A DNA stretch of 64,000 nt from Tahibacter aquaticus (GCF_004363655.1 NZ_SNZH01000002.1:186001-250000), one strand, 5' to 3'; positions 1-17,728 are shown, counted from the first letter of the stretch. Notes: a model not told the origin generated them from the letters alone. Translations and numbers: made by a program.

Positions 1-441
1 CAGGCTGAACGAGCGCTCGCTCGCGCCGATCAGTTCCAGGCAACGCGCGTCGTCCTCGACGATGAAGTGGTCGACGCCGCGATCGAAGCCCAGGGTCGGT
101 CCGAGGATGACCGGAAAATCGCTCTTGAGAACGGTCGTATAGCCGCTGCGCTTGGCTCGCGTCATCAGCGTTTCGTATTGCAGCTTGCGATTGTAGAACT
201 CGTATACGCCATGCCGCAGCGGCCATTTCCCGGTCAGCAGCGAGGCATGCGAGGCCGACGTATACGGAGCGGCAGAAAGGCAATTGGCGAAAAAGAAACC
301 TTTTCCGATGAGCTGGTCGAGTATCGCCGTGCGCGGTGCGGCGACGCCGGGATATTTTTCCGGCCACAGCTTGAGCGGGTTCGCGGCTATGGCATCGCTG
401 CGCAGGGTATCGATGGAAATCAGGACGACATGGTCGTACAT
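1..441 (-). CDS. Sulfatase-like hydrolase/transferase, C-terminus beyond the window
   Basis: The frame is open from an ATG at 441 to the window edge, giving 147 residues of the N-terminal part. The first strand, LISIDTLRSD, carries the metal-binding Asp11 typical of the alkaline phosphatase/sulfatase superfamily. The segment APYTSASHASLLTG (residues 58-71) aligns with the sulfatase signature. The nucleophile position, a Cys or Ser made into formylglycine in classical sulfatases, is Thr61 here, as in phosphoethanolamine transferase-type and other sulfatase-like enzymes. Substrate is unknown. GGAGACC lies just upstream of the ATG. The gene is the last visible member of a minus-strand cluster with sulfotransferases and an amidinotransferase, 86 bases downstream of the latter. 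A role in sulfate or phosphate ester chemistry is inferred. Confidence 0.8.
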   Translation of the reverse strand, partial: MYDHVVLISIDTLRSDAIAANPLKLWPEKYPGVAAPRTAILDQLIGKGFFFANCLSAAPYTSASHASLLTGKWPLRHGVYEFYNRKLQYETLMTRAKRSGYTTVLKSDFPVILGPTLGFDRGVDHFIVEDDARCLELIGASERSFSL

Positions 442-527
442 GGCAAGGTCTCCGAGGCGACGCGACGACAGGCACTGACGGGCGACGAAGCAGCGTGAGG
501 TGGCCGGCACGGCCGGCATTGCGCGGT

Positions 528-1508
528 CTAGTCCACAGCAGCCTCCGCAACCGCAGGGGGATCGCGCGCCAGGATGCCGACGCTGCAACCGATGCCGCCG
601 GCGCAAGCCAGGTATTCGCTCACGTCGAGCGAGTCCACGCGCACCGATTCGCGCTGCAGCTGCGCGCGCGTGCGGGCGCCGCCGGCCGGAGCAATCACGT
701 GGCCGGCGTCGATGGCAACGAAATTCAGCACGCGGTCGCGCTCGATCTCCTCGCGCTCGGTGCAGATCACGCAGGCGATGCCCTGCGCCGACAGCGCCGC
801 CTCGATCGCCGGCGAGCGGGCGGCGCCGTTGTACACGGCCTTGCCGGGCGACAGGAAATTGACGCTGCCGAGCAGGTGCTGCACGCCGGGCGGCAAATCC
901 ACCAGCGAGCACTTCACGCCGATGCGCGCCAGGGTTTCGCTCACCTGCGCCGCGCCGCTGGCATTGCTGCGCCGGCCGATGCCGATCAGCACATGGTCGG
1001 GGGCAATCCACAGCGCATCGGCGCCTTCGAACAGGCCGTCCGCATGCACGGTGAGCAGAATCGGTATGCCCAGGTCGGCGAGGAAGCGCGACACCAGCCG
1101 CGCCTCGCCCGCCCGCTGCCGCGACGCCGGCCGCGCCACGATCGCGCCTTCGGGCGTCATGAAGAAGAGGTCACGCATGAACAGGATGTTCGGCGGCGCC
1201 GCTGCGTCGTCCAGCACGTCGACCGCCACGCCGGCGGATTCGAAATACTGCTTGAGCGCGAAGAATTGCGCCTGCAGGCGTTGCAGGTCAGGGCAGCGCA
1301 GCAGTAGCTGGACCTGGGGATCTGCGATGGCGGCCAGCGACGCGGGAGGCCTGGCCAGCGCGACGCGGCGCAACCGCCCGGTTTCGCTGCGATTGCCACA
1401 GGCGCGCCAGAGCTGGCCCGCGGCCAGGTCTTCGCCATGGCTGGCCGTGCGGCCCAGCCAGCCCTCTCCGCCCAGGGTTGCCGGCAGGCGCGGCTCAGCT
1501 CCAGGCAT
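528..1508 (-). CDS. Amidinotransferase / dimethylarginine dimethylaminohydrolase-like protein
   Basis: The 326-residue protein has the pentein fold signatures of the arginine deiminase/DDAH/amidinotransferase family: MRDLFF with Asp113, FEGAD with Glu161 and Asp164, a His at 211 before LLGSVNFL, and a C-terminal AGGIGC placing the catalytic Cys at 308. Family members cleave or transfer guanidino groups of arginine derivatives through a covalent amidino-cysteine intermediate. About 100 N-terminal residues precede the first recognisable motif, so the first part is less conserved. The start overlaps the end of the upstream sulfotransferase gene by 14 bases, implying an operon. The family is well supported. 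The substrate (free arginine, methylarginine or a small molecule of this cluster) is unknown. Confidence 0.8.
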   Translation of the reverse strand: MPGAEPRLPATLGGEGWLGRTASHGEDLAAGQLWRACGNRSETGRLRRVALARPPASLAAIADPQVQLLLRCPDLQRLQAQFFALKQYFESAGVAVDVLDDAAAPPNILFMRDLFFMTPEGAIVARPASRQRAGEARLVSRFLADLGIPILLTVHADGLFEGADALWIAPDHVLIGIGRRSNASGAAQVSETLARIGVKCSLVDLPPGVQHLLGSVNFLSPGKAVYNGAARSPAIEAALSAQGIACVICTEREEIERDRVLNFVAIDAGHVIAPAGGARTRAQLQRESVRVDSLDVSEYLACAGGIGCSVGILARDPPAVAEAAVD

Positions 1509-2784
1509 CGGTCTTGCCCTCGTAGCCCAGTTCTTCGGGACGCAGCAGCAGGGCTGCGTTGCGCACGAAATTCATGACCAGGTTCTCGCGCGAACGCCAG
1601 CGGTACGGCGCCGGCCGCTCGGTCACCATGACCGGCCGTGGCCGCTCCAGCAGCCGCGCGGCGGCGGCGATGCCGAGCCAGTGCAGCAGCGCGCAGCGCG
1701 CCTCGTGGCCGCGCGGTCCGGCATCGATGAAGTCCTCGAACTTGATGCGCCAGGTCGATCGCGCCGACGCCACGGTTTCGGCCAGGATGCGCCGGTTCGT
1801 GGTCGCCCACTGGAACGCGCAGACGTCGCCGACGCTGGCGTTGCGCACGGCTTGCCAGCCCGGCGGAAGATCGAACTTCCACCAGTGCGTGGCCCAGGGA
1901 TGGCGTTCCGAATAGCCGGCGATCTGCAGCGGCTCGGCGGTACGGTGGGAAAAGAAATTGCGGTGCTCCCAGCCGTCGAGCAGGCCGTTGATGCTCGCCG
2001 CCGGATTGCGCACCAGATGGACGACGCGAATCTCCGCCTTGGCGAATACCTTGCGCAGCAAGCCCATCCGATAGATGTTGCTGGGATCCTTGATGACGAC
2101 GGCGCGACGGCGCAGCTCCTCGGCGGCAGGCTGGCGCCACAGCCGCGGCAGCACGAACGGCGTCTCTTCGATCAGGCGTCCGGGCAGCGGCCCCACCGGC
2201 AGCGGACGATGCGGAAAATGCTGGCGGACTTTCTCCGTCGGCAGGTCGTAGCGATACGGGCATACGCCGGGATGCTGCTGGTGAATGCGCGGCAGCAGGG
2301 CCAGCAGGAATTCGACCGGGTCGAATTCGTCGGCGCGGCGCCAGCCCAGTCCGCCCAGCGTCGCCGTCACCCAGGCCAGGACCTGGTCGGCGCAGAACAC
2401 CTCGTCCGGCCATTGGCAGCACAGGTTGAACAGCACGTTGTCGGTCAGCTGCCGCAGGCGGATGCCGGCATCCGGCGGCGGCAGCTCGCCCAGGCGGCGG
2501 AAGAATTCACGCTCGAAGGCCGGCATCAGCGCCGGCGGGATCTCGCGGAGCACGTCGGAGCAGTCGTCGCCACAGAAGCTGGCGACGCCGACCAGGCGCA
2601 GTATGGATTTCAGCTCGCCGCCCAGGTGCAGCAGGCCCGGTTGCGCCCGCAGCCATTCCGCCAGCGCGCTGGATCCGCTGCGCGAGGCCGATGCGATGAG
2701 CACGACCTGGCGCACATCGTCGAAGCACGCGGCGGCGGCAGGCGCCGGCGGCGGCGCGAGACTGGATGCGGCGCCGCTGCTCAT
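1495..2784 (-). CDS. Sulfotransferase family protein (second of two)
   Basis: A 429-residue protein begins at the ATG at 2784, whose first bases overlap the stop codon of the preceding gene (ATGA), indicating translational coupling. SASRSGSSAL at residues 32-41 is the 5'-phosphosulfate-binding loop. VVHLVRNPAASINGLL in the middle resembles the 3'-phosphate-binding segment of PAPS-dependent sulfotransferases. Such enzymes move a sulfuryl group from PAPS to a hydroxyl or amine. The frame stays open upstream to 3573, but that stretch is antiparallel shadow of the neighbouring sulfotransferase and lacks family motifs, so the short start is chosen. The acceptor is unknown. The protein differs clearly from the adjacent sulfotransferase, so it is not a recent duplicate. 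Confidence 0.78.
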   Translation of the reverse strand: MSSGAASSLAPPPAPAAAACFDDVRQVVLIASASRSGSSALAEWLRAQPGLLHLGGELKSILRLVGVASFCGDDCSDVLREIPPALMPAFEREFFRRLGELPPPDAGIRLRQLTDNVLFNLCCQWPDEVFCADQVLAWVTATLGGLGWRRADEFDPVEFLLALLPRIHQQHPGVCPYRYDLPTEKVRQHFPHRPLPVGPLPGRLIEETPFVLPRLWRQPAAEELRRRAVVIKDPSNIYRMGLLRKVFAKAEIRVVHLVRNPAASINGLLDGWEHRNFFSHRTAEPLQIAGYSERHPWATHWWKFDLPPGWQAVRNASVGDVCAFQWATTNRRILAETVASARSTWRIKFEDFIDAGPRGHEARCALLHWLGIAAAARLLERPRPVMVTERPAPYRWRSRENLVMNFVRNAALLLRPEELGYEGKTDAWS

Positions 2785-3848
2785 CGGCACAGGCCCAGGT
2801 AGCGCAGCAGCAACGCCCTGCGCCAGCGCAACAGCACGTTGCGATCGCGCAGGACGGCGCGCAGCTCGGTCTTCAGCGCATGCAGCGGCTCGACCAGCCT
2901 TGCTCGCGCATAGCGCCAGCGGCTGGGCCGCGGTGGCCGCAGCGGCAACGCATAGCCCAGTGTCTGCAGCAGTTCGGCGGTGTGGCCTTCGACGTCCTGC
3001 GCCTCGCGCAGCGTGAGGCGCCGGCGATAGGCCTGCACGCTGGTGGTGGAAATCGGCTTGGCCACGTTGGCCCAGGACGAAGACAGTCGCGCCGCGATGC
3101 GCGCCTCGTCGCCGGAAAATGCGCTCAGCATCGACGCCTCGAAAGGCAGGCCGAGGAAGGCACAGATCTGTACGAATGCCGGCGCGGGATCGCCGACCAG
3201 CGCCTCGTAGTGCAGGCGCAGGATGCGTTGCGCACCGTAGCGCTGCCAGGCCGCCAGGCCGAGCTGCTGCTGTTGCTGCCACAGTACGGCGGTATTCAGT
3301 GCAACGTTGGGATTGAACACCGACTGTTTCGACGACGCGGCCACATCGCGCGGATCGCGGATCAGCCAGAGAAACCGCGCGGCCGGGTAGTAGTCCGCCA
3401 GCGCGTCGATCTGGTGGATGGCGAAGGTGCTCTTGCAGCCCCAGCGCGGCTTGCGCTGCTGCTGTGCGTGCCAGTACTGGATGGCGTCGTAAAGCCCGAG
3501 GAGATCGGGCGTGCGCATTTCCCGCAGTATCCAGGCGGCGTCGGGCAGGGTCTGCCACGGATGGATATGCCAACGCACCAGGCGCAGCGCGTCGCGCACC
3601 AGCCGTTGCCGTCTGTGCAGCTGGGCCAGATCGCCGTAGCGCGGCAGCAGCGGCAGGAAATAGCGCAGCAGATGCGGCGGATGCGGCACGCTGATAGCGG
3701 AGTGCGCATTGAGCGCAAGGCGAAGCAGGTTCGAGCCCGAGCGCTCGGTGCCGACGATGAAGACCGGCCTGTCGCGGGGATGCGGTGTCGCCCCGGCGGC
3801 GCCGTCGGCCACTGCCGGGGTCCCTGCGTCATCCAATCCCAGGCTCAT
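2781..3848 (-). CDS. Sulfotransferase family protein (first of two)
   Basis: A 355-residue protein. The ATG at 3848 is preceded by GGGAGACC; an in-frame TTG 15 bases further upstream is less likely. VFIVGTERSGSNLL contains the phosphosulfate-binding loop at residues 33-40. FLWLIRDPRDVAASS is the 3'-phosphate-binding segment. Near the C-terminus, LHYEALVGDP and ICAFLGLPFE match the usual sulfotransferase pattern around the second part of the fold. The enzyme should use PAPS; its acceptor cannot be told. It is followed by a second sulfotransferase with a four-base overlap and lies 95 bases downstream of a ferritin-like gene on the same strand, so these genes are probably co-transcribed. Confidence 0.85.
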   Translation of the reverse strand: MSLGLDDAGTPAVADGAAGATPHPRDRPVFIVGTERSGSNLLRLALNAHSAISVPHPPHLLRYFLPLLPRYGDLAQLHRRQRLVRDALRLVRWHIHPWQTLPDAAWILREMRTPDLLGLYDAIQYWHAQQQRKPRWGCKSTFAIHQIDALADYYPAARFLWLIRDPRDVAASSKQSVFNPNVALNTAVLWQQQQQLGLAAWQRYGAQRILRLHYEALVGDPAPAFVQICAFLGLPFEASMLSAFSGDEARIAARLSSSWANVAKPISTTSVQAYRRRLTLREAQDVEGHTAELLQTLGYALPLRPPRPSRWRYARARLVEPLHALKTELRAVLRDRNVLLRWRRALLLRYLGLCR

Positions 3849-3943
3849 ACGGTCTCCCGACAACGGGTTTCAGTCAGCGCGAGGCGAGATCGACCCGGCC
3901 GGAACAGTTCGGGCCGGGCGATCCCAAACGGTTTCCGAAGCGG

Positions 3944-4648
3944 TTACTGCAGGTAGTTCGAGCCATACGCCTCGACGCAGATCGCGCGGGCGGCAGGTAC
4001 TTCCACCGTGTTGCTGCAGCTCACGTCATACAGCTGCTTGCGCATCTGGTCGGCCAGTTCCAGCACGCGTGCCTGGCTTTCCGCATCCTGGGCCAGATCT
4101 TCCAGGCCCTTGCGGCCGATGTTGCTGTGGAACAGTTCGTCCTTCGCGATCCTGGAATAGGCGCGGGCGATGTAGTCGTCCTCGATGATCTCGGACATCT
4201 TCTGCCACACGCGGTGAGCGCGGCCTTCGGCGATGAACTGATAGGTGTAGAGCGCGAGCAGGTCGTTCTCGTCGAACTCTTCCAGGCAGCGCACGCCCTT
4301 GGCCTGGCCGGCGTCGCGTTCGTCGGCGAGGGACTGCATGTTCACTTCTTCGCCGGTCAGGTGTTCGATGACATTGGCCACCAGATCGAAATGGGTGGCT
4401 TCGTCGAGCACCTGCTTGGCGAGATTGCGCACCATGCCGCGCGGCAGCGTACTGGAAAGCCGCAACAGCCGGCTCGCCACCTCTTCCATGTTGCGGTACT
4501 CGTTCATGCAGCGGCCGCGGAAGTGCTCGACCATCGCCTCTTTCGACGGGTTGGCCTTGAAATACGCCTCCACCTGCATTTCGGACGCCTGGAACAGCGC
4601 CTCGTTCTGAGCCGCAAGCGTCGAAACGAAATTACTAGCCGTTTCCAT
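3944..4648 (-). CDS. Ferritin-like di-iron protein of unknown function
   Basis: A 234-residue helical protein. The ATG at 4648 sits five bases after AAGGAG, which decides the start over a GTG at 4654. It contains the four-helix di-iron pattern: Glu in the first core helix (about residue 55), EATH (Glu83, His86), Glu141 in the third helix and ELFH (Glu171, His174). This fits ferritin-like oxygenases, oxidases or desaturase-type proteins. No signal peptide or membrane segment is seen, so it should be cytoplasmic. Its length and lack of other motifs do not point to ferritin or bacterioferritin storage. It heads the sulfotransferase/amidinotransferase cluster and is divergent from a radical SAM gene, suggesting a redox step in the same pathway (inference). 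Confidence 0.7.
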   Translation of the reverse strand: METASNFVSTLAAQNEALFQASEMQVEAYFKANPSKEAMVEHFRGRCMNEYRNMEEVASRLLRLSSTLPRGMVRNLAKQVLDEATHFDLVANVIEHLTGEEVNMQSLADERDAGQAKGVRCLEEFDENDLLALYTYQFIAEGRAHRVWQKMSEIIEDDYIARAYSRIAKDELFHSNIGRKGLEDLAQDAESQARVLELADQMRKQLYDVSCSNTVEVPAARAICVEAYGSNYLQ

Positions 4649-5136
4649 AGACACTCCTTACTTAACGTTGGATAGGTCTTGCAGGAATTACAGGACTATG
4701 GCAGTGCGAACCGCACGGCCGGCCGGAGAATATGCAGTGAATGTAAAGATGTCAAAGATTAACAAGTTGGTAAAGATAGTTAGTATTCCTTACATTGACA
4801 TTGTCTATCGAACACCCGCATCCGGCACCGGACCCTGCGCGGCGACGCCCGCAACGGGGCATATATGTTGCGCCGCCACAGAAAACTGCGGACAGGCCTT
4901 TGAATACGATGTTTTCGACATCGTCGTGTCGCAGCAAAGTTTCGTTAGAAAGACGTTTTTCTGCCGGCATATGGATGCACGCCTGCGGCCACGGAAAAAA
5001 TATTCCGAACGTTTTCCATTGATGCCGAATATGGCAATCGTGGCAATTTAGTTCCCGAGGAATTTTTTGATCATGTTCCGTTTTGTTTTACGTTTACGTT
5101 AGGATCGCCGCGAAAAGGCGCCCGTAGGAGAGCCCG
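4649..5136. promoter_or_regulatory. Divergent AT-rich intergenic region
   Basis: This 488-base gap separates the divergent ferritin-like and radical SAM genes and is clearly richer in A+T than its surroundings. It should hold both promoters. A perfect 6-bp inverted repeat, CGATGT-N5-ACATCG, lies at 4907-4923, and TGGCAAT occurs twice near 5033-5047. Short open frames exist on both strands, including one encoding a Cys-containing 72-residue peptide at 4752-4970 (minus), but none has a ribosome-binding site or recognisable family, so none is called as a gene. Confidence 0.5.
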
Positions 5137-6540
5137 GTGAACGTCTTCCTGAAGCCGCAGTTTTTCCGCGACGACATACTGGCGAATCTGCTGTTGCCGC
5201 GTACCGGCTGGCGTGGCCGCTCGTATGTCGTGGTGTTTCCGACCAAGTACTGTCCGGTGGCCTGCAAGCATTGCTACTTCGCCTCGAGCATGCCGGGCCG
5301 CAACGACGAGGGCGGCTCGCTGGGCGCGGCGGACATCGAAAGGGTCAAGCAATTCGTGTTCGATGCCGATACCGAACTGCTGCAGATCACCGGTGGCGGC
5401 GAGCCGCTGCTGCAGATGCAGTCGGTGCTGGAGCTGATCGGGCAGGGCCGCGCGCGCCGCATGCTGCTCAATACCAGCGGGCTTTTCGCCAGCTCTCCCG
5501 CGCGCGCTGCCGACACGATAGAGCGGATCTTCAGCGCCTTCGCCGCCAATCCATACTGCGGCAAATTCATCTTCCGGCTGTCGGTGGACGAGTTCCACCT
5601 GGAGACCGTCAAGCCTGCCAAGCTGCTCAACGTGGTGTCGCACTTCCGCCGCAACTTCCAGCGCTACGAAGCCGCGAACTTCACGCTGAAGCTGCATACC
5701 CTGGCCGGCGACCGCGCGGTGGAGTGGCTGCTGCAACCGCTGGCGGACGAGGTGCTGCGCCTGGAACCCACCGAGGTGGTCTTCCACGACGGCACCGCCT
5801 GCGCCATAGGCCATGCGCCACGGATGATGTCGCAGGCCAGGCCGGACCTGTTCAATCTGGAGGAAACCCGCCATGCGCTGGATGTCTTCGACGAGGTGCG
5901 CGATCCGACGCCGGGCGCCTTCATCGACGACAACCTCGACCTGGGCCTGTGCTTCCTGATCCACGAAGACGGCGATGTGGAACTCTGGAATACCGCGCCA
6001 GCCGACAACGTGGCCAATGTGCGCAGCCACGATTTCGCCGCGGTTCGCCACAGCGTGCTCGGCGACGTGATCCAGCTCGGCGCGCTGGATCACACGGCCC
6101 CGTACATCGAGGCGCTGGTGGCGGAGGTAGACCCGCTTTCCCTGCGCCGGGCCAAATCGATAGGCTCGGCCACCTTTCTCAACCGCCGCATGTTTGCCGA
6201 GGCCCGCCTGCGCCTGTACGTGTCGCTGCGGGTGATACAGGACTATCTCGCCGACGGCAGCCTCGGCCAGGCCCAGCTCGAACAGCTGCAGGCAGACACC
6301 CGTGCCGCGCTGCGCCTGCCCGGCGAGCAGCTGCGGCGCCTGTACCGGGAATCCGGCTTCGACATCGTCGAGCAGCAGCTGAACCAGCCGGATCCGAGCC
6401 CGTCGGAGCTGATCGACCTGTATCAGCGCCTGAAACTGGGTCACTTCGACGTGGCCCCGACGGCGATGGTGGAACGCGTCCGCGGCGCTACCACGCTGCG
6501 CGAGCAGGTGCGCAGGGATTTCCTGGCGATGCTCGGATAG
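5137..6540 (+). CDS. Radical SAM protein without SPASM cysteines
   Basis: A 467-residue protein with a GTG start at 5137, seven bases after TAGGAG. The SAM-cleaving [4Fe-4S] motif is CPVACKHC (Cys39, Cys43, Cys46), and ITGGGEPLLQ (about 86-95) is the GGE strand that binds the SAM amino group. The C-terminal half lacks a cysteine-rich SPASM or Twitch cluster, so no auxiliary iron-sulfur clusters are expected. It contains HEDGDVELWNT and a helical tail of about 150 residues. The substrate is unknown. It is divergent from the ferritin-like/sulfotransferase genes and followed by an apparently unrelated phosphoesterase 40 bases on. A role in modifying a small molecule or peptide made by this cluster is possible but unproven. 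Confidence 0.85.
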   Translation: MNVFLKPQFFRDDILANLLLPRTGWRGRSYVVVFPTKYCPVACKHCYFASSMPGRNDEGGSLGAADIERVKQFVFDADTELLQITGGGEPLLQMQSVLELIGQGRARRMLLNTSGLFASSPARAADTIERIFSAFAANPYCGKFIFRLSVDEFHLETVKPAKLLNVVSHFRRNFQRYEAANFTLKLHTLAGDRAVEWLLQPLADEVLRLEPTEVVFHDGTACAIGHAPRMMSQARPDLFNLEETRHALDVFDEVRDPTPGAFIDDNLDLGLCFLIHEDGDVELWNTAPADNVANVRSHDFAAVRHSVLGDVIQLGALDHTAPYIEALVAEVDPLSLRRAKSIGSATFLNRRMFAEARLRLYVSLRVIQDYLADGSLGQAQLEQLQADTRAALRLPGEQLRRLYRESGFDIVEQQLNQPDPSPSELIDLYQRLKLGHFDVAPTAMVERVRGATTLREQVRRDFLAMLG

Positions 6541-6580
6541 TGTCTGTAGCCGGGGCCGCAGGTTTTCCACAGGAGAAGGC

Positions 6581-7516
6581 GTGGCGTACTACGACCTGAT
6601 CGGCGACGTGCACGGCTGCGCCGGCACCTTGCGCATTCTGCTGCACGAACTGGGCTACCGCAGCCGTGCCGGCACCTGGCGCCATCCCGAACGGCGCGCC
6701 ATCTTCGTCGGCGACCTGATCGACCGCGGTCCGCGCCAGCGCGAGACGGTCGACCTGGTCAGGCGCATGAGCGACGAAGGCGCCGCGCTGTGCATCATGG
6801 GCAACCACGAATGGAATGCCATTGCCTACGCGACACCCCGCGCCGACGGCAGCGGCTACCTGCGCGAGCACTCGGCCAAATACCGCTATCACCACCAGGC
6901 GTTCCTCGACGCCTATCGGCACGACGAGGCCGGGCGCCGCGATGCGCTGGCCTGGTTCCGCCGCCTGCCGCTATGGCTGGACCTCGGCGTCTTGCGCGTC
7001 GTGCACGCAACCTGGGACGCGACGGCGATGCAGCGGCTGCAGCGAGTCTACGGCGCGCCGGCATTCGGCGAGGGGTTGCTGCACGACGCCTTCGTCCCGG
7101 GTAGCTGGCAGTCGCAGGCCATCGACTGCCTGTTGCAGGGCGAGCAGGTGTCGCTGAACGAGGGCGTCAGCGTGGCCGACCGCTTCGGTATCCAGCGGCA
7201 GTCCGTGCGCATCCGCTGGTGGGGCAGCCGCGCCGCCAGCCTGCGCGAGGCCCACCTGGGCCCTCGCGCCAGCCGCCGCCTGGTGCCGGACATCGCATTG
7301 GCAACGGCGCACTGGGTCGGCTACGGCGAAGACCAGCCGCCGGTGTTCTTCGGCCACTACTGGCTGGACGGGCAGCCCACGGCACTGGCGCCGAACGTGG
7401 CCTGCCTCGACTACAGCGTGGCCGCGCCCGACGGAGTACTCGCGGCCTATCGCTGGAGCGGCGAAGCGGTGCTCGACGACAGGCATTTCGTCGTGGTGCC
7501 GCGCCAGGAGGATTGA
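6581..7516 (+). CDS. Metallophosphoesterase, ApaH/PrpA-like
   Basis: A 311-residue calcineurin-like phosphoesterase. All standard metal-binding blocks are present in order: GDVHG near the N-terminus, GDLIDRGP around residue 49 and GNHEWN near residue 75, then FFGHYW in the C-terminal third. The GTG start at 6581 follows AGGAGAAGG closely. These enzymes use a two-metal centre to hydrolyse phosphomonoesters, phosphoserine/threonine or dinucleotide polyphosphates; which one applies here cannot be decided. It lies 40 bases after the radical SAM gene on the same strand, so it could share its transcript, but no functional link is evident. Confidence 0.85.
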   Translation: MAYYDLIGDVHGCAGTLRILLHELGYRSRAGTWRHPERRAIFVGDLIDRGPRQRETVDLVRRMSDEGAALCIMGNHEWNAIAYATPRADGSGYLREHSAKYRYHHQAFLDAYRHDEAGRRDALAWFRRLPLWLDLGVLRVVHATWDATAMQRLQRVYGAPAFGEGLLHDAFVPGSWQSQAIDCLLQGEQVSLNEGVSVADRFGIQRQSVRIRWWGSRAASLREAHLGPRASRRLVPDIALATAHWVGYGEDQPPVFFGHYWLDGQPTALAPNVACLDYSVAAPDGVLAAYRWSGEAVLDDRHFVVVPRQED

Positions 7517-7586
7517 GCGGCGCGCCGCCGGCGCCGGCCGCCGGCCCGCAGCCCACTTGTGGCGCATTCTTGTCTACCATGCGCGG

Positions 7587-8999
7587 ATGGACACTCCGAC
7601 CCGCACGGCCCCTCTTCACGCCACGCTTGCGCAGCTGCGCGAAGCCTGGAACGCGCAGCGCCCGGACTACGGCCAGCGCATGGACGACCTGGCGCGGCTG
7701 CGCGCGGCGTTCAAGCGCCGGCTGGACGGGCTGGTCGATGCGATGAGTGCCGACTTCGGCCGCCGTTCGCGCCACGAATCGCTGCTCACCGACGGTATGA
7801 CCGTGCTGCACGAGATCGACCTGGTGCGCAGCCGGCTGCGCCGCTGGATGCGGCCGCAGGCACGCTCGGTGGAGTGGACCTTCCTGCCGGCCAGTGCCGA
7901 GATCCGCTACCAGGCGCTGGGCGTGATCGGCATCATCTCGCCGTGGAACTACCCGGTGAACCTCGCGCTGATTCCGCTGGTCAGCGCGATCGGCGCCGGC
8001 AACCACGTGATGCTCAAGCCGTCGGAATTCACGCCGCGCACCTCGCAAGCGATGGCGGAACTGCTGGCCGAGGTGTTTCCGGCCGACCGTGTCGCGACGA
8101 TACTCGGTGATGCGGACGTCGCCGCCGAATTCGCCGCCTTGCCGCTGGACCACCTGCTGTTCACCGGCTCCACGCCGGTAGGGCGCAAGGTGATGGCTGC
8201 CGCCGCTCCGAACCTCACCCCGGTCACGCTGGAACTCGGCGGCAAGTCGCCGGCCATCGTCGCACCGGGCTATTCCATCGCCACCGCCGCCGGCCGCATC
8301 GCCGCCGGCAAGCTGCTGAATGCGGGCCAGACCTGCATCGCCCCCGACTACGTACTGCTGCGCGAACAGGACAAGGCTGCCTTCATCGCCGCGCTGCGCG
8401 CCTACGTGACGCAGCATTATCCCAATTTGCGCCAAAACGCCGATTACACCAGCATCATCAACCCGCGCCAGTACGTGCGCCTGCAGGGCTTGGTGGACGA
8501 GGCGCGCGCCCGTGGCGCCGAGATCGTCACCCTGCCCGACGACCAGGCCCACGACATCGACGCGCGCGTGTTCGCGCCGACCCTGGTGCTGAATGCACCG
8601 GCCGACAGCCGCGTGATGCAGGAGGAAATCTTCGGGCCCATCCTGCCCCTGGTCACGGTTGACTCGGTCGATGCGGCCATCGCCTATATCAATGCGCGGC
8701 CGCGGCCGCTGGCGCTGTATCACTTCGACCACGACCGCAGCCGTACGCGCCAGGTGCTGGAAAGCTGCGTGGCCGGCGGCGTCAGCGTGAACGATTGCAT
8801 TTACCACAATGCCCAGGCCGAGCTGCCGTTCGGCGGCGTCGGCCCCTCGGGCATGGGCCATTACCACGGCCACCACGGCTTCCTGACGTTTTCCAAGCAA
8901 TTGCCGGTATTCCGCCAGGCTCGCTTCAGTTCCCTGTCGCTGCTGCGGCCGCCGTACAAGGGCCTGGCCAGTTTCGTCACGCGCTTTTTGACGCGCTGA
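7587..8999 (+). CDS. Coniferyl-aldehyde-dehydrogenase-like NAD(P)-dependent aldehyde dehydrogenase
   Basis: A 470-residue aldehyde dehydrogenase. IISPWNYPVNLAL is the Rossmann-fold entry strand, LELGGKSP carries the general-base Glu and NAGQTC the catalytic Cys. The unusual IAPDYVL after the Cys and the C-terminal hydrophobic region are typical of the CalB/coniferyl aldehyde dehydrogenase branch, which oxidises long or aromatic aldehydes to acids. The start is uncertain: the ATG at 7587 (MDTPTRT) is preferred because homologues begin near there, though the frame is open to 7557. A long-chain aldehyde role is as likely as a lignin-derived one. It is followed after 33 bases by a regulator gene. 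Confidence 0.85.
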   Translation: MDTPTRTAPLHATLAQLREAWNAQRPDYGQRMDDLARLRAAFKRRLDGLVDAMSADFGRRSRHESLLTDGMTVLHEIDLVRSRLRRWMRPQARSVEWTFLPASAEIRYQALGVIGIISPWNYPVNLALIPLVSAIGAGNHVMLKPSEFTPRTSQAMAELLAEVFPADRVATILGDADVAAEFAALPLDHLLFTGSTPVGRKVMAAAAPNLTPVTLELGGKSPAIVAPGYSIATAAGRIAAGKLLNAGQTCIAPDYVLLREQDKAAFIAALRAYVTQHYPNLRQNADYTSIINPRQYVRLQGLVDEARARGAEIVTLPDDQAHDIDARVFAPTLVLNAPADSRVMQEEIFGPILPLVTVDSVDAAIAYINARPRPLALYHFDHDRSRTRQVLESCVAGGVSVNDCIYHNAQAELPFGGVGPSGMGHYHGHHGFLTFSKQLPVFRQARFSSLSLLRPPYKGLASFVTRFLTR

Positions 9000-9032
9000 C
9001 CGCCGCCGTTTGCAGCACGGCAGGCGACGGGC

Positions 9033-10616
9033 ATGAGCGGCATCTATCGCCTGGACGACCTGCGCGTCGACACGCGCCGGCGCAGCGTGCAGCGCGGCGA
9101 TGCGGCGCTGGAGGTGGCCGGGCTCAGCTTCGACCTGCTCGCCTATCTGCTCAGCCAGGGCGATCGCGTGGTCAGTTTCGACGAACTGATCGCAGCGGTG
9201 TGGACGCCGTCCGTCGTCGGCGAAGAAACCGTGACCCAGCGCGTCAAGCTGCTGCGCCAGGCGCTGGACGACGACGGACGCAATCCGCGCTACCTGCGTT
9301 CGGTGCGCGGCAAGGGCTATCAGTTGTGCAGCACGCCGCAACAGCTGGCCGACACCGCCGGCACCGCGATCCCGAACGTCGTGGCGCCTGCGCGCGGACT
9401 GCGCTGGGTGATGCTGTTGCTGTCGTTGCCGCTTCTGGCCCTGGCCGTGCTGTTGCTTCTGCGCCGCCCCGACACGGCGGCACCCGTGCGCAGCGAGCGC
9501 GAGGAAATGCTGCAGCGCGCCCGCTACTACGCCGGCATCGGCCAGAAAGACGATATCGAACATGCCATCGGTCTGTACGAAACCCTGCTGCAGCGCGATG
9601 CCACCGACCGTGCCGCCCAGGTTGGCCTGAGCTTCGCCTACAGCACGCGTGTCTGCCTGTACAACCAGGCGCCGGAGTGGGCCGGGCGGGCGCAGGACCT
9701 GGCCGAATCCGCACTGGCTGCCGAGCCGCGCGACAGCCTGGCCGAGGCGGCGCTGGCTTACTCGCACGATTGCCGCGGCCATATGGCCGCAGCAATTGCG
9801 CACTACGAGAGGGCCGTCGCGCTGGATCCGCGGGCGCGCATCGACAGTGCCGCTTCGCTGGCCTATCTGTACATGGTCAAGGGCCGCCTGGCCGACGCGC
9901 TGGCACGCAACCTGGATGTACAGCGCAGCGGCAGTTCGCCGCGCTATCTGCAGATACAGATTGCGCGCAACCTGGAACTGCTCGGCGAAACCCGGCGTGC
10001 GGAACAGCGCTACGCGCGCAGTTTCCGGCTCTATCCCGACAACGTCTATTCCAATGCCGCCTGGCCACGCTGCCTGCTGCTGCAATCGCGCCTGGGCGAG
10101 GCACAGACGGCGCTGGACGAGGCGCAACGCCGTTCCGAGCATCCCGAGTTGTATCTGCTGCAGGCCGAATTGGCCCTGTTGCGTGGCGAGCGTGCCACTG
10201 CCGCGACGGCCTTCGCTGCCGCGGCGCGGCTGCGGCCGCATGCGCAACTGGCGCAGACCCTGGCCAGGCTATATGCCGCGCCGCCGGGCGATGACGCCTG
10301 GATCGCCCAGCGCATAGACGCGCTCGACCCCGGTCCGCGGCGCGGCAAGGACGACTGGCCGGAAGACCAGCTGGAACTGGCGCTGTTGCAGCTGGCCCAC
10401 GGCGACAAGGTCGCAGCCTTGGCATCGCTGCACGATGCGGTCGAAGCAGGTTTCCGCGACCGTAGTTATTTGCAGGTTTCGGCATTGTATAAACCGCTGT
10501 CCGCCGAACCCGGGTTCGCCGCCCTGCTCGACGATATCGCGCGGCGGGCAAGCCGCGAGCGCGAGGGCGCAGCCGCCACGATTGCCGCGCTCGAAACAGA
10601 TAACCCGCGACCGTAG
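9033..10616 (+). CDS. Winged-helix DNA-binding membrane protein with TPR-like C-terminus
   Basis: A 527-residue one-component regulator of the CadC/ToxR layout. Residues 1-105 form an OmpR-type winged helix ending in RYLRSVRGKGYQL, the usual recognition wing. A single membrane helix (VMLLLSLPLLALAVLLLL) lies near residues 128-145. The remaining 380 residues are helical repeats consistent with TPRs in the periplasm. There is no receiver domain. Proteins of this kind sense an envelope condition and bind DNA directly. The target genes are unknown; the adjacent aldehyde dehydrogenase, 33 bases upstream, is one candidate. Such regulators are common in Lysobacterales. Confidence 0.8.
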   Translation: MSGIYRLDDLRVDTRRRSVQRGDAALEVAGLSFDLLAYLLSQGDRVVSFDELIAAVWTPSVVGEETVTQRVKLLRQALDDDGRNPRYLRSVRGKGYQLCSTPQQLADTAGTAIPNVVAPARGLRWVMLLLSLPLLALAVLLLLRRPDTAAPVRSEREEMLQRARYYAGIGQKDDIEHAIGLYETLLQRDATDRAAQVGLSFAYSTRVCLYNQAPEWAGRAQDLAESALAAEPRDSLAEAALAYSHDCRGHMAAAIAHYERAVALDPRARIDSAASLAYLYMVKGRLADALARNLDVQRSGSSPRYLQIQIARNLELLGETRRAEQRYARSFRLYPDNVYSNAAWPRCLLLQSRLGEAQTALDEAQRRSEHPELYLLQAELALLRGERATAATAFAAAARLRPHAQLAQTLARLYAAPPGDDAWIAQRIDALDPGPRRGKDDWPEDQLELALLQLAHGDKVAALASLHDAVEAGFRDRSYLQVSALYKPLSAEPGFAALLDDIARRASREREGAAATIAALETDNPRP

Positions 10617-10635
10617 CCGGCCCTGCGGAGGGTGT

Positions 10636-10717
10636 GATGAGCGCCAGCGAATTGCACCACGAGGCATGACAGACAACCTCCGTCGCACGATCTGCGGCGC
10701 AATTCGCTGCGCTCATC
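10636..10717. repeat. REP-like long inverted repeat between convergent genes
   Basis: The arms at 10636-10658 and 10696-10717 are inverted copies of about 22 bases. The left reads GATGAGCGCCAGCGAATTGC and the right, on the other strand, GATGAGCGCAGCGAATTGC, differing by a single inserted C and one base further in. About 37 bases form the loop. It lies between the convergent regulator and beta-lactamase-like genes and could stop transcription both ways. The sequence resembles palindromic intergenic elements of many GC-rich Gammaproteobacteria. No second copy was noticed in this window. Confidence 0.6.
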
Positions 10718-10723
10718 GGCGCC

Positions 10724-11836
10724 CTACGGTTGCGGCAGGGCTTTCAGGACGTAGTCGCGGAACAGGCCTTGCGAACGTGGATGGGATTCGCGGTTGTTGT
10801 AGGCCGTGCTGGTGATCACGGCGACGAGGCCGAGCTCGGGCGAGACGAATACGTAGTTGCCACCATTGCCTGACATGGCCCAGAACCACTGGTCGCGGCC
10901 TTGCGCGGGAAAGCGGAAGCGCCAGGTCTGGTAGCCGTACTCGGTGTTCTCGCGCGGCACCGCGCGCGGCGTCAGCATCGCTTCTATCCAGGCCTGGCTC
11001 ACGACGCGGCGTTCCTTCCAGATACCGCCGCTGCGCAGCAGGTCGCCGATCTTGGCGATATCGCGGCTGCGGTAGCGCGTGCCGCCGCCGCCCATGCCGG
11101 TGCCTTCGGAACTGCGGTTCCATTGCACTTTGGCAATGCCGAGCGGCTGCTCCAGCGCGGTCGCGGCAAAGTCCTGCAGGCGCTGTTTGCTCGCCCGCTC
11201 GACCACGGCGCCCAGCAGGAACGAGCCGGCCGTGCAGTAGGAAAACGCGCGGCCGTAGGGGCTGTCGGCCGGACGCGGCTGCCATGGCGCAAAGCCGCGC
11301 AGGGGAATATCCAGCGCAAACGCGACCCAGTCTTCGCTGAGGTACATGCGTTCTTCGTTGCCGGCAGAGAACGGGTTTTCGTCGTCGCATTCCCAGGCCG
11401 AACTCATGCTCAGCAGATCCTGCAGGGTGATGGCGGCCTTGCGCGGGTCGAGCTTGCGTGCGGGCCGCTTGTCGCGAAAGAAGGCGTAGGCGCTAGCCTG
11501 CTCGTTCTTGATCAGGCCACGGTCGATGGCCTGGCCGAGCAGCAGGGCGGTGACGGTCTTGGTGGCCGAGCGCATGTCGTTGAGCGTGTCGCGCGCGCCG
11601 CCGTTGAAATAGTTCTCGTAGACCAGTTCGCCGCGCTGCACGACCAGCACGCTGGTGATGCCGGGCCCGGGCTTGGCCGCGACCTGGTTTTCCAGCTCGT
11701 CGAACAGGGCGGTATTCCAGCCGCGCTGGCGCGCATCGGCTACGGCCCAGCCGTCGTCCTGCGGCGCAGGCGGGGTATAGGCAGCGGCGCTGGCGCCGTA
11801 CAGCAGGCAGGCAAGAACTAGGGCAGAACGCAGCAT
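10724..11836 (-). CDS. Exported serine hydrolase, class C beta-lactamase family
   Basis: A 370-residue protein with a signal peptide (MLRSALVLACLLYGASAAA). The catalytic SxxK is present as SATK about residue 90, the tyrosine motif appears as FSYCTAGSFLLG, and GNGGNY near the C-terminus takes the place of the KTG box. This combination is typical of the esterase/6-aminohexanoate-dimer-hydrolase-like branch rather than true antibiotic-destroying AmpC. The ATG at 11836 is preceded by GGAGG. Substrate is unknown, likely an ester or amide in the periplasm. The gene is monocistronic and convergent with the winged-helix regulator. Confidence 0.82.
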   Translation of the reverse strand: MLRSALVLACLLYGASAAAYTPPAPQDDGWAVADARQRGWNTALFDELENQVAAKPGPGITSVLVVQRGELVYENYFNGGARDTLNDMRSATKTVTALLLGQAIDRGLIKNEQASAYAFFRDKRPARKLDPRKAAITLQDLLSMSSAWECDDENPFSAGNEERMYLSEDWVAFALDIPLRGFAPWQPRPADSPYGRAFSYCTAGSFLLGAVVERASKQRLQDFAATALEQPLGIAKVQWNRSSEGTGMGGGGTRYRSRDIAKIGDLLRSGGIWKERRVVSQAWIEAMLTPRAVPRENTEYGYQTWRFRFPAQGRDQWFWAMSGNGGNYVFVSPELGLVAVITSTAYNNRESHPRSQGLFRDYVLKALPQP

Positions 11837-12022
11837 GGAATCCTCCGTCGGTAGCGAGGAGCCAGCCTGGCACCGGTGCGGCTGAAGCGCATGAAAGCCG
11901 TCTGAAGATTTCTGAAGGCGAGCAGTGGCGCGGGTTTGCGCTGGGCCGCTGGCGCTCGCGTGAACTGCATCGGTTCGGATAGAGCAGTACCGAAAAGCCA
12001 GCCAACCACGCGCGACGATCGC

Positions 12023-13798
12023 TTAGAGCAGCGGCGTATCGTCAGCCAGCGCGTCTTTCTGTCCGCCGATTTCCCGCAGCGCATATTGGTAGCCCAGCTC
12101 GATCGCGCGTTCGTAGGCGGTCCAGTCGAGCAGGCCTACACCGGTGACCGGCGGCGCCAGCAGCAGGCTGGCCTTGGCGCGGCGGTCGGCGTTGGCAGCC
12201 TTGGAATTGACCATGCCGGCGCGCAGCAGGATGTCGACCACGCCGGGCCGGCGCGGCTTGCGCAGCTTGTCCAGCAACAGGCGCCAGCTGTGCGGCGAGG
12301 CATATTCTTCGACGCCGGCATGCAATACGTCGTCGGCGCCAATATCGACGGCAACCACGTCGCCGACGGCCTGCTCGCGCATCACGTCGGTGGGCAGGTT
12401 GTTGATCACGGCACCGTCGACCAGTACCTGGCTGTCGTGGAACAGCGGCGGCAGCACGCCGGGAATGGCCGAGCTGGCGCGCAGCCAGTACCACAGCAGA
12501 CCGTTGCGGTGGGTCATTGCGTCGCCGCTGGTCAGGTTGGCCGAGACGGCGAAGAACGGCAGCATCAGGTCTTCGATATGGCGTTCGCCAAAGGCCTGCT
12601 GCAGCAGCTCGGACACGCGCCGGCCGCTGGTCATGGCGACAAAGGGAAAGGTGTAGTCCGACAGCGGCCGCCCGGCGACGAAGGCGCGGCGGTAGCGCTC
12701 GACCATTTCCTCGTCGCTCCAGCCTGCTGCCACGCCGGCGGCGATGATCGCGCCAATACTGGTGCCGCCGACCGAATCGATGCGCACACCCGCTTCGCGC
12801 AAGGCACGCACCACGCCGATATGGGCGAAGCCACGCGCGCCGCCACCGGACAGCACCAGGCCCAGGCTGCGCCCGGCGACCAGGCGCGCGATGCGCTCGA
12901 TGTCGCCGCGCCGGCACCAGTGATGCAGGCGCGCATCGGGTGCGGCCGCCAGCCAGGCGGCGCCGCGGCCCCATTCGATTTCGCCACGCGCATGAAACAG
13001 CACCAGGTGTCGCGGCCGGTGCAGCGCCTGTTGCGCGCCCTGGCAGGCGCGTTCGGCCCAGGGCGACGGCGCGCCGCGTGCGTGTGCCAGCTGCAGCAGG
13101 GCGTCGGCCTGGCGCACGCACAGTTCGCGCCAGTCGCGGTTGTCGTTGCCGGCCAGGTAGATGACGAAATGCGAGGCGGTTTCCTGTTCGGCAAACCAGC
13201 TGCTGGTCTTGTCCGCTGCCTCGGTCGCATCGAGCAGGCGGCAGCTGCCGTAGTCGGACAGGGCTTGCTGCAGCGCCAGCGCGAACTCGCGCGCATCGAT
13301 GCCGGCATCGTGCGGCAGCACCGCGAGGGTGCGCGGCGCCGAGGCCAGATCGCCGCTGCGCCGCATCAGCAGGCGCTCGACCGCCACGCGGGAGGCTTCC
13401 AGCATTGCCCGCGGCTGGCGCTGTACCAGGTCGTTGAAAGCAGCGCGCGACAGACGCAGCAATTCCGAATCGCGCAGGGCGCGCACCGTGGCCGAGCGCG
13501 GCTGGTCGACAATAAGGCCGAGTTCGCCCACCGATTCGCCCGCGGCAATCAGGCCGATGCGGTGCTCGATTTCCTCGTCCGGGCGCCGGCGAAACGCGCC
13601 CAGGCTGCCGGAACGCAAAATATACAAAGCATCCGACGCGTCGCCGGTTTCGAACAAGGTGGCGCCGCCGGGCAGGACAAACCATTCCAGCACCTGTTCC
13701 AGTGCGGCCAGCTCGGTTTCGTCGAGGTGCTTGAACAGGCTGGACTGGCGCAGCAGTTCGCACAGGCCGGGCGTGGGCAGGCTTTCGGTTTCGCTCAT
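12023..13798 (-). CDS. Patatin-like phospholipase with cyclic-nucleotide-binding-type domain
   Basis: A 591-residue protein in the bacterial neuropathy-target-esterase class. Residues 15-140 form a CNMP-binding-like beta roll (LFKHLDETELAALEQ, GESVGELGLI, PRSATVRAL). Then comes a linker of about 150 residues and the patatin domain from about residue 305: oxyanion loop GGGARG, nucleophile elbow GTSIG, and DGA supplying the catalytic Asp. It should hydrolyse acyl esters of phospholipids or lysophospholipids. No signal peptide is seen. Whether the N-terminal domain binds cAMP, cGMP or nothing cannot be judged by eye. It is divergent from the oligopeptidase gene with 123 bases between starts. Confidence 0.88.
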   Translation of the reverse strand: MSETESLPTPGLCELLRQSSLFKHLDETELAALEQVLEWFVLPGGATLFETGDASDALYILRSGSLGAFRRRPDEEIEHRIGLIAAGESVGELGLIVDQPRSATVRALRDSELLRLSRAAFNDLVQRQPRAMLEASRVAVERLLMRRSGDLASAPRTLAVLPHDAGIDAREFALALQQALSDYGSCRLLDATEAADKTSSWFAEQETASHFVIYLAGNDNRDWRELCVRQADALLQLAHARGAPSPWAERACQGAQQALHRPRHLVLFHARGEIEWGRGAAWLAAAPDARLHHWCRRGDIERIARLVAGRSLGLVLSGGGARGFAHIGVVRALREAGVRIDSVGGTSIGAIIAAGVAAGWSDEEMVERYRRAFVAGRPLSDYTFPFVAMTSGRRVSELLQQAFGERHIEDLMLPFFAVSANLTSGDAMTHRNGLLWYWLRASSAIPGVLPPLFHDSQVLVDGAVINNLPTDVMREQAVGDVVAVDIGADDVLHAGVEEYASPHSWRLLLDKLRKPRRPGVVDILLRAGMVNSKAANADRRAKASLLLAPPVTGVGLLDWTAYERAIELGYQYALREIGGQKDALADDTPLL

Positions 13799-13921
13799 GC
13801 GCCTATGCTACGCCCAGGCCGGGCGCCGGCGTTCCCGCAACGCAGCGCAAACGCGCGGTGCGCTTGATTTTCCGGCGCCAGCGCTACACCTTGGCGCTTT
13901 GTCTGAGCCGGAAAACCGACC

Positions 13922-15964
13922 ATGGATGCGACCAATCCCCTGCTGCGCGACAGCGAACTGCCGCCGTTTGCAGCGATCAGGCCCGAACACGTAGTGCCGG
14001 CGGTGGAGAGCATCCTGGCCGAGTACCGCGCCGCGATCGACGCACTGACGGCCGACAGCGGCCCACGCGATTTCGCCAATACGCTGCTGCCGCAGGAAGC
14101 CTGGGACGAGCGGCTGGGGCGCGCCTGGTCGCCGGTATCGCATCTTCATTCGGTCAAGGACAGCGAAGAACTGCGCAAGGCCTACGCTACCGCGCTGGAA
14201 GCGATAACCGAGCATTCGACCGAGCTGGGCCAGAACCGCGAGCTTTATGCCGCCGTCGACGCGGTTGCCCGGCGCGGCGATTTCGCCGCGCTGGATCGCC
14301 CGGCACGTACCCTGACCGAGCATGCGCTGCGCGATTTCCGCCTGTCCGGCGTGGCGCTGGAAGAACCGGCGCGTTCGCGCTTCAAGGCGATTGCGAACGA
14401 GCTGTCGCGCCTGGACACCGAGTTCGAGGAAGCCGTGCTGGATGCTTCCGAAGCCTGGACCGAACACCTCACCGATGCCGCCGCGCTGGACGGCATTCCC
14501 GAATCCGGCCGTGCCGTGCTCGCCGCCTATGCCCAGGAGAAGGAACTCGGCGGCTGGCTGGTGACCTTGAAGCAACCCAGCGTGCAAGCCGTAATGACGT
14601 ATGCGACCGACCGCGCCCTGCGCCAGCGCGTCTATACCGCCAACGGCACGCGTGCTTCCGACCAGGGCCCGAACGCGGGCGAGTTCGACAATTCCGAACG
14701 CATGGAGCAGATCCTCGCCCTGCGCCACGAAGCCGCCCAGTTGCTCGGTTTCGCCAATGCGGCGGAAGAGTCGCTGGCCACCAAGATGGCGACCTCGCCG
14801 GCCAAGGTGATGGACTTCCTGCACGACCTGGCCGCACGCGCCAAGCCGAATGCCGAACGCGATATTGCCGAGCTGCGCGAATTTGCCGCGAGCGAACTCG
14901 GTATCGCCGACCTGCAGCCCTGGGACGTGAGCTTTGCGTCGGAAAAGCTGCGCGAACGCCGCTTCGAATTGAACGAAGAAGAGCTCAAGCCGTATTTCCC
15001 GCTGCCGTCCGTGCTGGAAGGCCTGTTCGCGATCTGCCAGCGCGTCTTCGGCATCCGTTTCCACCGCCGCGACGGAGTCGACGTGTGGCATGAGGACGTG
15101 CGCTATTACGACGTATTCGATGCGGACGAACAGCCTATCGCCGGCGCCTATGTCGACGTCTACGCGCGCAGCGGCAAGCGCGGCGGCGCCTGGATGGACG
15201 TCTGCCGCTCGCGCTTTCGCGAGGGTGGCGGCCTGCACAGGCCCATCGCCTACCTGACCTGCAATTTCGCTCCGCCGACCGCGACGACCCCGTCGCTGCT
15301 GACACATGACGACGTGCTGACCCTGTTCCACGAGTTCGGCCACGGTCTGCATCACCTGCTGACCGAAATCGACTATCCGGGCATTTCCGGCATCAGCGGC
15401 GTGGAATGGGACGCGGTCGAGCTGCCCAGCCAGTTCCTGGAAAACTTCGGCTGGCAGCGCGAGACGCTGGATCTGTTCGCTCGCCATTACGAAACCGGCG
15501 CGGCACTGCCCGACGCGCTGTTCCAGCGCATGCTGGCGGCACGCCATTTCCAGGCCGGCATGTTCCTGGTGCGCCAGCTGGAGTTCGGCCTGTTCGATTT
15601 CCGCATCCACAGCGAGTTCGAGCCCGGCCGCGGCGGCCGCGTGCTGGAGATACTGCAGCAGGTGCGCGACGAAGTGGCCGTGATACAGCCGCCGGCCTGG
15701 CAGCGCTTCCCGCACAGCTTCACGCATATCTTCGCCGGCGGCTACGGCGCGGGCTACTACAGCTACCTGTGGGCCGAGGTGCTGTCCGCCGATGCCTTCT
15801 CGCGCTTTGAGGCCGAAGGCATATTCAATGCGGACACCGGCGCCTCGTTCCGCCGCGAGGTGCTGGCTGTCGGCGGCTCGCGCCCGGCATTGGAAAGCTT
15901 CGTCGCGTTCCGCGGACGCGAACCCGAACCGGCCGCCCTGCTGCACAGCTACGGCCTGACCTGA
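13922..15964 (+). CDS. prlC: Oligopeptidase A, M3 family zinc metallopeptidase
   Basis: A 680-residue cytoplasmic M3 peptidase, the usual length of oligopeptidase A. The zinc site HEFGH lies near residue 470, with the third ligand in the following GVEWDAVELPSQFLENF segment. It degrades short peptides, including cleaved signal peptides. The start MDATNPLL matches the family N-terminus. A perfect 13-bp GC-rich stem-loop follows the stop codon. The gene lies upstream of xthA on the same strand with 55 bases between. Confidence 0.92.
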   Translation: MDATNPLLRDSELPPFAAIRPEHVVPAVESILAEYRAAIDALTADSGPRDFANTLLPQEAWDERLGRAWSPVSHLHSVKDSEELRKAYATALEAITEHSTELGQNRELYAAVDAVARRGDFAALDRPARTLTEHALRDFRLSGVALEEPARSRFKAIANELSRLDTEFEEAVLDASEAWTEHLTDAAALDGIPESGRAVLAAYAQEKELGGWLVTLKQPSVQAVMTYATDRALRQRVYTANGTRASDQGPNAGEFDNSERMEQILALRHEAAQLLGFANAAEESLATKMATSPAKVMDFLHDLAARAKPNAERDIAELREFAASELGIADLQPWDVSFASEKLRERRFELNEEELKPYFPLPSVLEGLFAICQRVFGIRFHRRDGVDVWHEDVRYYDVFDADEQPIAGAYVDVYARSGKRGGAWMDVCRSRFREGGGLHRPIAYLTCNFAPPTATTPSLLTHDDVLTLFHEFGHGLHHLLTEIDYPGISGISGVEWDAVELPSQFLENFGWQRETLDLFARHYETGAALPDALFQRMLAARHFQAGMFLVRQLEFGLFDFRIHSEFEPGRGGRVLEILQQVRDEVAVIQPPAWQRFPHSFTHIFAGGYGAGYYSYLWAEVLSADAFSRFEAEGIFNADTGASFRREVLAVGGSRPALESFVAFRGREPEPAALLHSYGLT

Positions 15965-15970
15965 GCCACC

Positions 15971-16000
15971 GCCCGGCCCGGCGAAACCGCCGGGCCGGGC
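15971..16000 (+). terminator. GC-rich stem-loop after prlC
   Basis: A perfect 13-bp stem (15971-15983 with 15988-16000) closed by an AAAC loop lies seven bases after the prlC stop codon. There is no T-run after it, so it may be a pause or RNA-stabilising hairpin rather than a standard intrinsic terminator. Confidence 0.5.
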
Positions 16001-16019
16001 CTGCTGGTAGACTTCCGCC

Positions 16020-17458: not shown

Positions 17459-17510
17459 GCCGCGCGCTGCGCCAGCACGAACGCAGGTTGGGGTAAGCCG
17501 CAGGCACACA

Positions 17511-17634: not shown

Positions 17635-17728
17635 GTTCGCCAGTGGCTCACCGCCAACCGACGATCATTGTGCAGCACCCATTGCAGCGCAACGCCGCAA
17701 GCCCCGAAATTCCGCTACCGAAAACAAG

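Follow-up and report, generated by a model that had tools for sequence, protein, structure and literature searches.

At the left edge of a 64,000-nucleotide stretch of the genome of the gammaproteobacterium Tahibacter aquaticus (the window; G000:C2:186001-250000, where G000 is the source genome), we found a minus-strand operon of seven genes that probably, at a likelihood of roughly 0.7, makes a sulfamate (R-O-SO2-NH2), most likely a 5'-O-sulfamoyl nucleoside akin to 5'-O-sulfamoyladenosine, by a variant of the ascamycin/nucleocidin pathway. In order of transcription, the operon encodes a ferritin-like di-iron protein, two sulfotransferases (ST1 and ST2), an enzyme resembling dimethylargininase (DDAH), a sulfatase-like protein, a third sulfotransferase-like protein (ST3) and a methyltransferase; a gene for a radical S-adenosylmethionine (SAM) enzyme diverges from it across approximately 0.5 kb. 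An earlier note, made from this DNA alone, had suggested the modification of a small molecule or peptide by arginine, sulfate and oxygen chemistry, and its author had known of no described pathway combining these enzymes. A small-molecule pathway with sulfate and guanidine chemistry is well supported. The statement on novelty did not survive, as four homologs, together with class counterparts of other members, correspond to the sulfamate-forming part of the acm and nuc clusters.

Homologs of four sulfamylation genes in Streptomyces

The sulfamate (-O-SO2-NH2) is a rare group found in the Streptomyces antibiotics ascamycin and nucleocidin, whose clusters (acm and nuc, respectively) were reached by comparing the enzyme classes encoded here with those of pathways to sulfur-containing nucleosides. 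The acm cluster has been reported to encode, among others, a sulfatase (AcmG, 480 amino acids [aa]), a sulfotransferase (AcmK, 356 aa), a methyltransferase (AcmL, 250 aa), an amidinotransferase (AcmN, 319 aa), AcmO (444 aa), a GyrB-like protein (AcmP, 658 aa), a rubrerythrin (AcmQ, 155 aa) and an Fe-S oxidoreductase (AcmJ, 557 aa) (PMC4257720). In S. calvus, sulfamylation requires nucI, -G, -J, -K, -L, -N, -O, -Q and -P, along with genes for 3'-phosphoadenosine 5'-phosphosulfate (PAPS), and nucG, nucK, nucN and nucO have each been tied to it by knock-out (PMC10946740).

We used ST2 as a query against 393 Streptomyces genomes and compared the DNA around the better matches, naming genes at these loci by the letters of their acm/nuc counterparts (G for AcmG/NucG, and so on). 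Matches were found in 20 genomes (HMMER), 12 of them nearly full-length (39-44% identity; E 1e-60 to 5e-75). Homologs of K, N and O lie close together in 11 genomes, six of which also have G, directly adjoining N; the complete G-K-N-O quartet is thus clustered in 6 of the 393 genomes and K-N-O alone in 5 more. At these loci, ST1 is 40-45% identical to K, ST2 37-40% to O and the DDAH-like enzyme 43-47% to N (11 clusters), while the sulfatase-like protein matches G at 42-45% identity over about 445 residues (six clusters; E 2e-110 to 1e-117). The same loci hold genes for a second sulfatase, a UbiE-type methyltransferase, a GyrB-methyltransferase fusion and a B12-binding radical SAM protein of 558-615 aa, and their gene content is that published for acm and nuc. 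Gene sizes and Pfam profiles also agree with those published for K, N and O, and the strong (ST1) and weak (ST2) matches to Sulfotransfer_3 mirror those of NucK and NucO, respectively. In phylogenetic trees, the sulfatase-like protein joins Streptomyces G with support of 100/100, apart from three other sulfatases of its own genome and from the I-like second sulfatases of the Streptomyces loci, and the DDAH-like enzyme groups with Streptomyces N, apart from the DDAH of the genus; support at the base of the ST2 tree is weak, and outgroups are few in that of ST1. Sequence comparison thereby identifies four operon genes as homologs of G, K, N and O, which are clustered in Streptomyces.

The published acmG and acmK knock-out primers (PMC4257720), which we translated and aligned to the proteins encoded here, provide an independent link of the sulfatase-like protein and ST1 to the experimentally tested acm cluster. 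The acmG peptide RTYFKSDFPIIL finds its counterpart at residues 102-113 of the sulfatase-like protein (TTVLKSDFPVIL) with a score of 42, against 21 for the next best protein; the acmK peptide ALLRTHIHPW corresponds to residues 89-98 of ST1 (RLVRWHIHPW), likewise scoring 42, against 19 for the next best. A second acmG peptide, GETLFTWARRRG, falls on residues 89-100 of the sulfatase-like protein (YETLMTRAKRSG) with a score of 29 that by itself is within reach of wrong-frame translations (up to 33), yet it immediately precedes the first acmG peptide. No clear match was obtained with the acmK forward primer.

Two Streptomyces loci with the G-N pair (L140, ~1171-16828, and L144, ~2043-17954) also encode nonribosomal peptide synthetase-like giants and a HisRS/HisZ-like protein, together with genes that, read by eye, resemble QueD, QueE and GTP cyclohydrolase (7-deazapurine synthesis); their product may be a 7-deazaadenosine sulfamate linked to a peptide or an amino acid.

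The operon, its proteins and its genomic context

All of the families named in the earlier note are present on the strands it gave (Pfam, NCBIfam and gene calls; Table 1), and the overlaps of 4 (ST1/ST2) and 14 (ST2/DDAH-like) bases that it had pointed out were recovered. It had also advised extending the stretch to the left of base 1, where the sulfatase-like gene, which starts at 441, indeed continues for some 920 bases and is followed on the same strand by ST3 (overlapping it by 4 bases) and, 11 bases further, by the methyltransferase gene. The operon therefore reaches 2.2 kb beyond the window and ends tail to tail with a convergent gene for a MATE exporter, the two ends lying about 20 bases apart. 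The remaining gaps between operon genes are at most ~95 bases, the overlaps are tight and all reading frames are intact.

Table 1. Features of the operon and its flanks (window positions, or contig positions where prefixed by C2)
Feature	Position	Strand	Remarks
MATE exporter	C2:182442-183800		converges on methyltransferase gene
Small methyltransferase, 183 aa	C2:183822-184373	-	
ST3, third sulfotransferase-like gene	C2:184385-185083	-	
Sulfatase-fold protein, 453 aa	1-441, on to C2:185080 (gene C2:185080-186441)	-	NucG/AcmG homolog
DDAH/arginine-deiminase-fold enzyme, 326 aa	528-1508	-	NucN/AcmN homolog; PF02274; best PDB match DDAH
Divergent sulfotransferase ST2, 429 aa	1495-2784	-	NucO/AcmO homolog; weak Sulfotransfer_3 match
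Sulfotransferase ST1, 355 aa	2781-3848	-	NucK/AcmK homolog; Sulfotransfer_3 E 2e-35
Ferritin-like di-iron protein, 234 aa	3944-4648	-	first gene of operon; weak PaaA_PaaC/DUF455 matches
Divergent intergenic region	4655-5136		lower G+C (sequence and composition); presumed promoters of operon and radical SAM gene
Radical SAM enzyme, 467 aa	5137-6540	+	one CxxxCxxC
Metallophosphoesterase	6581-7516		40 bases after radical SAM gene
Aldehyde dehydrogenase	starts 7557		downstream of metallophosphoesterase

None of the core enzymes, whose families were assigned with Pfam and NCBIfam, reaches a curated NCBIfam subfamily cut-off; catalytic motifs are conserved relative to distant homologs. The protein that the earlier note had called an amidinotransferase does have that fold, but its nearest match is the hydrolase DDAH; its catalytic Cys, His and Glu motifs (GIGC, QHLLG and FEGAD) are conserved throughout the N homologs, its score against the DDAH equivalog (68 bits) is far below the cut-off of 340, and a separate, ordinary DDAH is encoded elsewhere in the genome. 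In the sulfatase-like protein, the Cys/Ser of CxPSR that sulfatases convert to formylglycine is replaced by a Thr, and the same Thr is found in the six aligned Streptomyces G homologs. (Two further large sulfatase-family genes, L050 and L043, lie within 9 kb at G000:C5:122288-131144 and fall outside the G group in the tree.) In the di-iron protein, two ExxH motifs and matching Glu residues could be read; it is a possible counterpart of NucQ/AcmQ, and its AlphaFold model (pLDDT 42) was unusable. The methyltransferase resembles L only weakly (26-32% over ~80 aa, confined to the SAM-binding core).

As the earlier note had it, the radical SAM protein lacks auxiliary clusters, containing a single CxxxCxxC and no further conserved cysteines. 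By profile, its nearest solved structure is the epimerase YydG (E 2e-7), although it scores only 25 bits against the YydG-type epipeptide epimerase equivalog (cut-off 300); its AlphaFold model (pLDDT 60) was unusable, the best Foldseek hit (E 5e-3) not being to a radical SAM protein. Relatives in Amycolatopsis, Streptomyces and Rhizobium (22-33% identity) share its CPVACxHC and ITGGGEP motifs and adjoin exporters of the MFS, MATE or DMT type, at loci that contain no homolog of the operon genes. Since these relatives are found solely beside exporters, the radical SAM gene, tried as an anchor, did not identify the pathway. We know of no function for the small family without auxiliary-cluster cysteines that is seen beside exporters at these loci (L081-L085 and L018). 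Their gene content argues that the pathway might consist of the seven-gene operon only, with or without the MATE exporter, and that the radical SAM gene is an unrelated neighbor sharing the intergenic region. Set against this are its divergent orientation, the need for a radical SAM enzyme in the nuc pathway, and a distribution like that of the rest of the cluster, as 274 sampled Gammaproteobacteria yielded weak superfamily matches and no close one. We consider an unrelated neighbor somewhat less probable than a true member, an option that is compatible with a sulfamate product and does not compete with it; membership of the radical SAM gene in the pathway is plausible but unproven.

The earlier note had looked to Lysobacterales for conserved clustering, which was not borne out in relatives; for the core genes, we located it in Streptomyces instead. 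Among 200 Lysobacterales, the di-iron protein occurs only in the source genome, bar one weak, partial match at 29%. In a genus sample of eight genomes (seven congeners besides the source), five congeners have ordinary DDAH relatives of the DDAH-like enzyme (29-33%) and two have none, and relatives of the MATE exporter are at most 29% identical; congeners lack orthologs of both. Across a sample of Pseudomonadota amounting to a few hundred species, the only matches to the sulfatase-like protein (~300 searched) and to ST2 (~400 searched) were weak and partial. A scan of genome contigs with the di-iron protein returned no relatives, and a tblastn search of plasmids with five of the proteins returned distant families with uninformative neighborhoods. 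At one haloarchaeal plasmid locus (L087, 6383-9482), an ST2 relative (30%) lies near adenylyl-sulfate kinase and YqcI/YcgG-family genes, perhaps as part of another sulfation pathway.

The interval between the DUF6249 and aldehyde dehydrogenase genes spans ~21.7 kb here (G000:C2:171828-193557; window ~-14172 to 7557), compared with ~2.7 kb in congener G473, and the region therefore differs by insertion or rearrangement. We rejected the whole interval as a single biosynthetic island, because it contains a gene like nrdA and others whose translations, judged by eye, look like nrdB, sigma-factor and cold-shock genes. Ribonucleotide reductase genes and a ferritin-like gene of the DUF455 type were also observed there. 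The composition is not strongly foreign. The metallophosphoesterase resembles the nucleotide phosphatases PrpE/ApaH, is not found at the same place in congeners and might belong to the cluster.

A possible route to a sulfamate and its alternatives

In the route that we envisage, ST1 and ST2 would transfer sulfuryl groups from PAPS, a dependence taken from papers on nuc (PMC10946740), and the DDAH-like enzyme would supply the sulfamoyl nitrogen. Published accounts of the acm/nuc pathway have suggested an amidinotransferase step, without biochemical proof. Our own, tentative proposal, on which we would not place an even bet, is that arginine, or a derivative of it, first receives a sulfuryl group on one guanidine nitrogen, after which the DDAH-like hydrolase might cut the C-N bond, yielding -SO2-NH2 and citrulline; the release of dimethylamine from dimethylarginine by DDAH provides a parallel. 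The sulfatase-fold enzyme, with its Thr nucleophile, would act as a transferase or diesterase and not as a true sulfatase, and the radical SAM and di-iron proteins may stand in for NucJ and NucQ, the former as a functional substitute. Finally, the product is probably exported by the adjacent MATE pump; this would be sensible, because adenosine 5'-sulfamate, like other nucleoside sulfamates, hijacks aminoacyl-tRNA synthetases (PMC7613620).

Several points weigh against a nucleoside sulfamate, and both the sulfamate and its scaffold should be read as predictions. The cluster was seen in a single genome, and no product, transcript or nucleoside-specific gene is known for it (the literature searched being open-licence papers). 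Homologs are present here for only four, perhaps five (L), of the nine genes used for sulfamylation in nuc. A J-type B12-radical SAM gene is absent from the source genome, while the same query finds matches of 78% and 91% in two control genomes, and NucJ is required in S. calvus (PMC10946740). The I and P types are not among the operon genes or flanks (no genome-wide search was made), and the Q type is missing from the cluster, the di-iron protein being only a class counterpart. The assignments of N and O, moreover, run via Streptomyces loci of matching content and not via the acm/nuc proteins themselves.

These same absences, of J, P, I and Q from the cluster and of J from the genome, would fit a G-K-N-O module that yields a sulfated or N-sulfated guanidine-derived intermediate for some other product (derived from an amino acid or peptide, for example), as would the want of a nucleoside-dedicated gene and the peptide epimerase as nearest solved relative of the radical SAM profile. 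Since each of the four genes has been linked to sulfamylation by knock-out in S. calvus, and adenosine requires no dedicated gene, we regard this as unlikely. Less likely still is a decayed or silent acquisition, i.e., a partial sulfamate pathway without a product: occurrence in a single genome and an incomplete gene set would suit it, but intact frames with tight overlaps, motifs conserved relative to distant homologs and a codon-position G+C like that of a working gene all speak for function. Sulfation or remodeling of a cell-surface glycan, to which the presence of sulfatase-like genes, and of weak relatives of those here, in glycan loci (e.g., on haloarchaeal plasmids) might point, is very improbable, given an operon without a glycosyltransferase, a DDAH-like enzyme without a known role in such loci and the far stronger homology to G, K, N and O; capsule or exopolysaccharide sulfation was rejected on homology.

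Returning to the nucleoside sulfamate, we speculate that this might be a leaner, Gram-negative version of the pathway, in which a non-B12 radical SAM enzyme and a di-iron protein with a full set of ligands replace NucJ and NucQ and the sulfamate nitrogen derives from a guanidine nitrogen of arginine by DDAH-type cleavage. In this complete form the idea is doubtful; if true, it would establish which enzymes form the core of biological sulfamate synthesis. Antibiotic and antimalarial research would also take an interest in a new producer and in how it protects itself, because of the synthetase hijacking mentioned above.

Comparison with known pathways

Like the cluster described here, the saxitoxin and cylindrospermopsin pathways combine sulfotransferases, an amidinotransferase-superfamily enzyme and MATE exporters. 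Those pathways start with a polyketide synthase and an arginine-type amidinotransferase, however, and the cluster contains no polyketide synthase. With DDAH itself, the DDAH-like enzyme shares the fold and the Cys/His/Glu motifs, its score remaining far below the equivalog cut-off. A "nucleocidin-like" call in Pseudoalteromonas (PMC9966250) was not counted as a precedent, since it rests on an automatic RiPP-like prediction (RiPP, ribosomally synthesized and post-translationally modified peptide).

Natural sulfamates are very rare, most known ones coming from actinomycetes (PMC9113183), and S-N bond formation, for which at least eleven genes are needed, is unsolved (PMC10946740). With the nuc cluster of S. 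calvus (PMC10946740), the operon shares counterparts of nucG, -K, -N and -O and possibly of L; none was found in the operon for the fluorination genes, the glucosyltransferase or I, J and P. In NucQ, two of the six iron ligands are reportedly missing, whereas the di-iron protein here keeps its two ExxH motifs and matching glutamates. Only class counterparts (radical SAM and ferritin-like) exist here for J and Q, and conversely, the K-N-O loci of Streptomyces contain no homolog of the di-iron protein, ST3, radical SAM protein or MATE exporter, nor was a ferritin-like gene seen near them in a motif scan. The absence of J and this lack of homologs of four of the proteins led us to regard the cluster as a variant.

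The likeness to acm (Streptomyces sp. JCM9888, KJ817374; PMC4257720) lies in the sulfatase-fold G, sulfotransferase K, DDAH-fold N and divergent sulfotransferase O, and both clusters additionally encode a methyltransferase, a radical SAM enzyme, a ferritin-family protein and an exporter. Specific to acm are the B12-type radical SAM J, GyrB-like P, second sulfatase I and pseudo-rubrerythrin Q, along with PAPS genes, AlaRS-like genes and distant halogenases, none of which the cluster here contains; it differs in turn by another radical SAM enzyme, a different di-iron protein, a third sulfotransferase-like gene, a MATE exporter and its gammaproteobacterial host. This host and the changed gene set point to a new source, and a rearranged form, of a rare pathway; such a distant variant, whose gene set is smaller and differs in part, would separate what is probably the core chemistry (G, K, N and O) from the parts that can be replaced.

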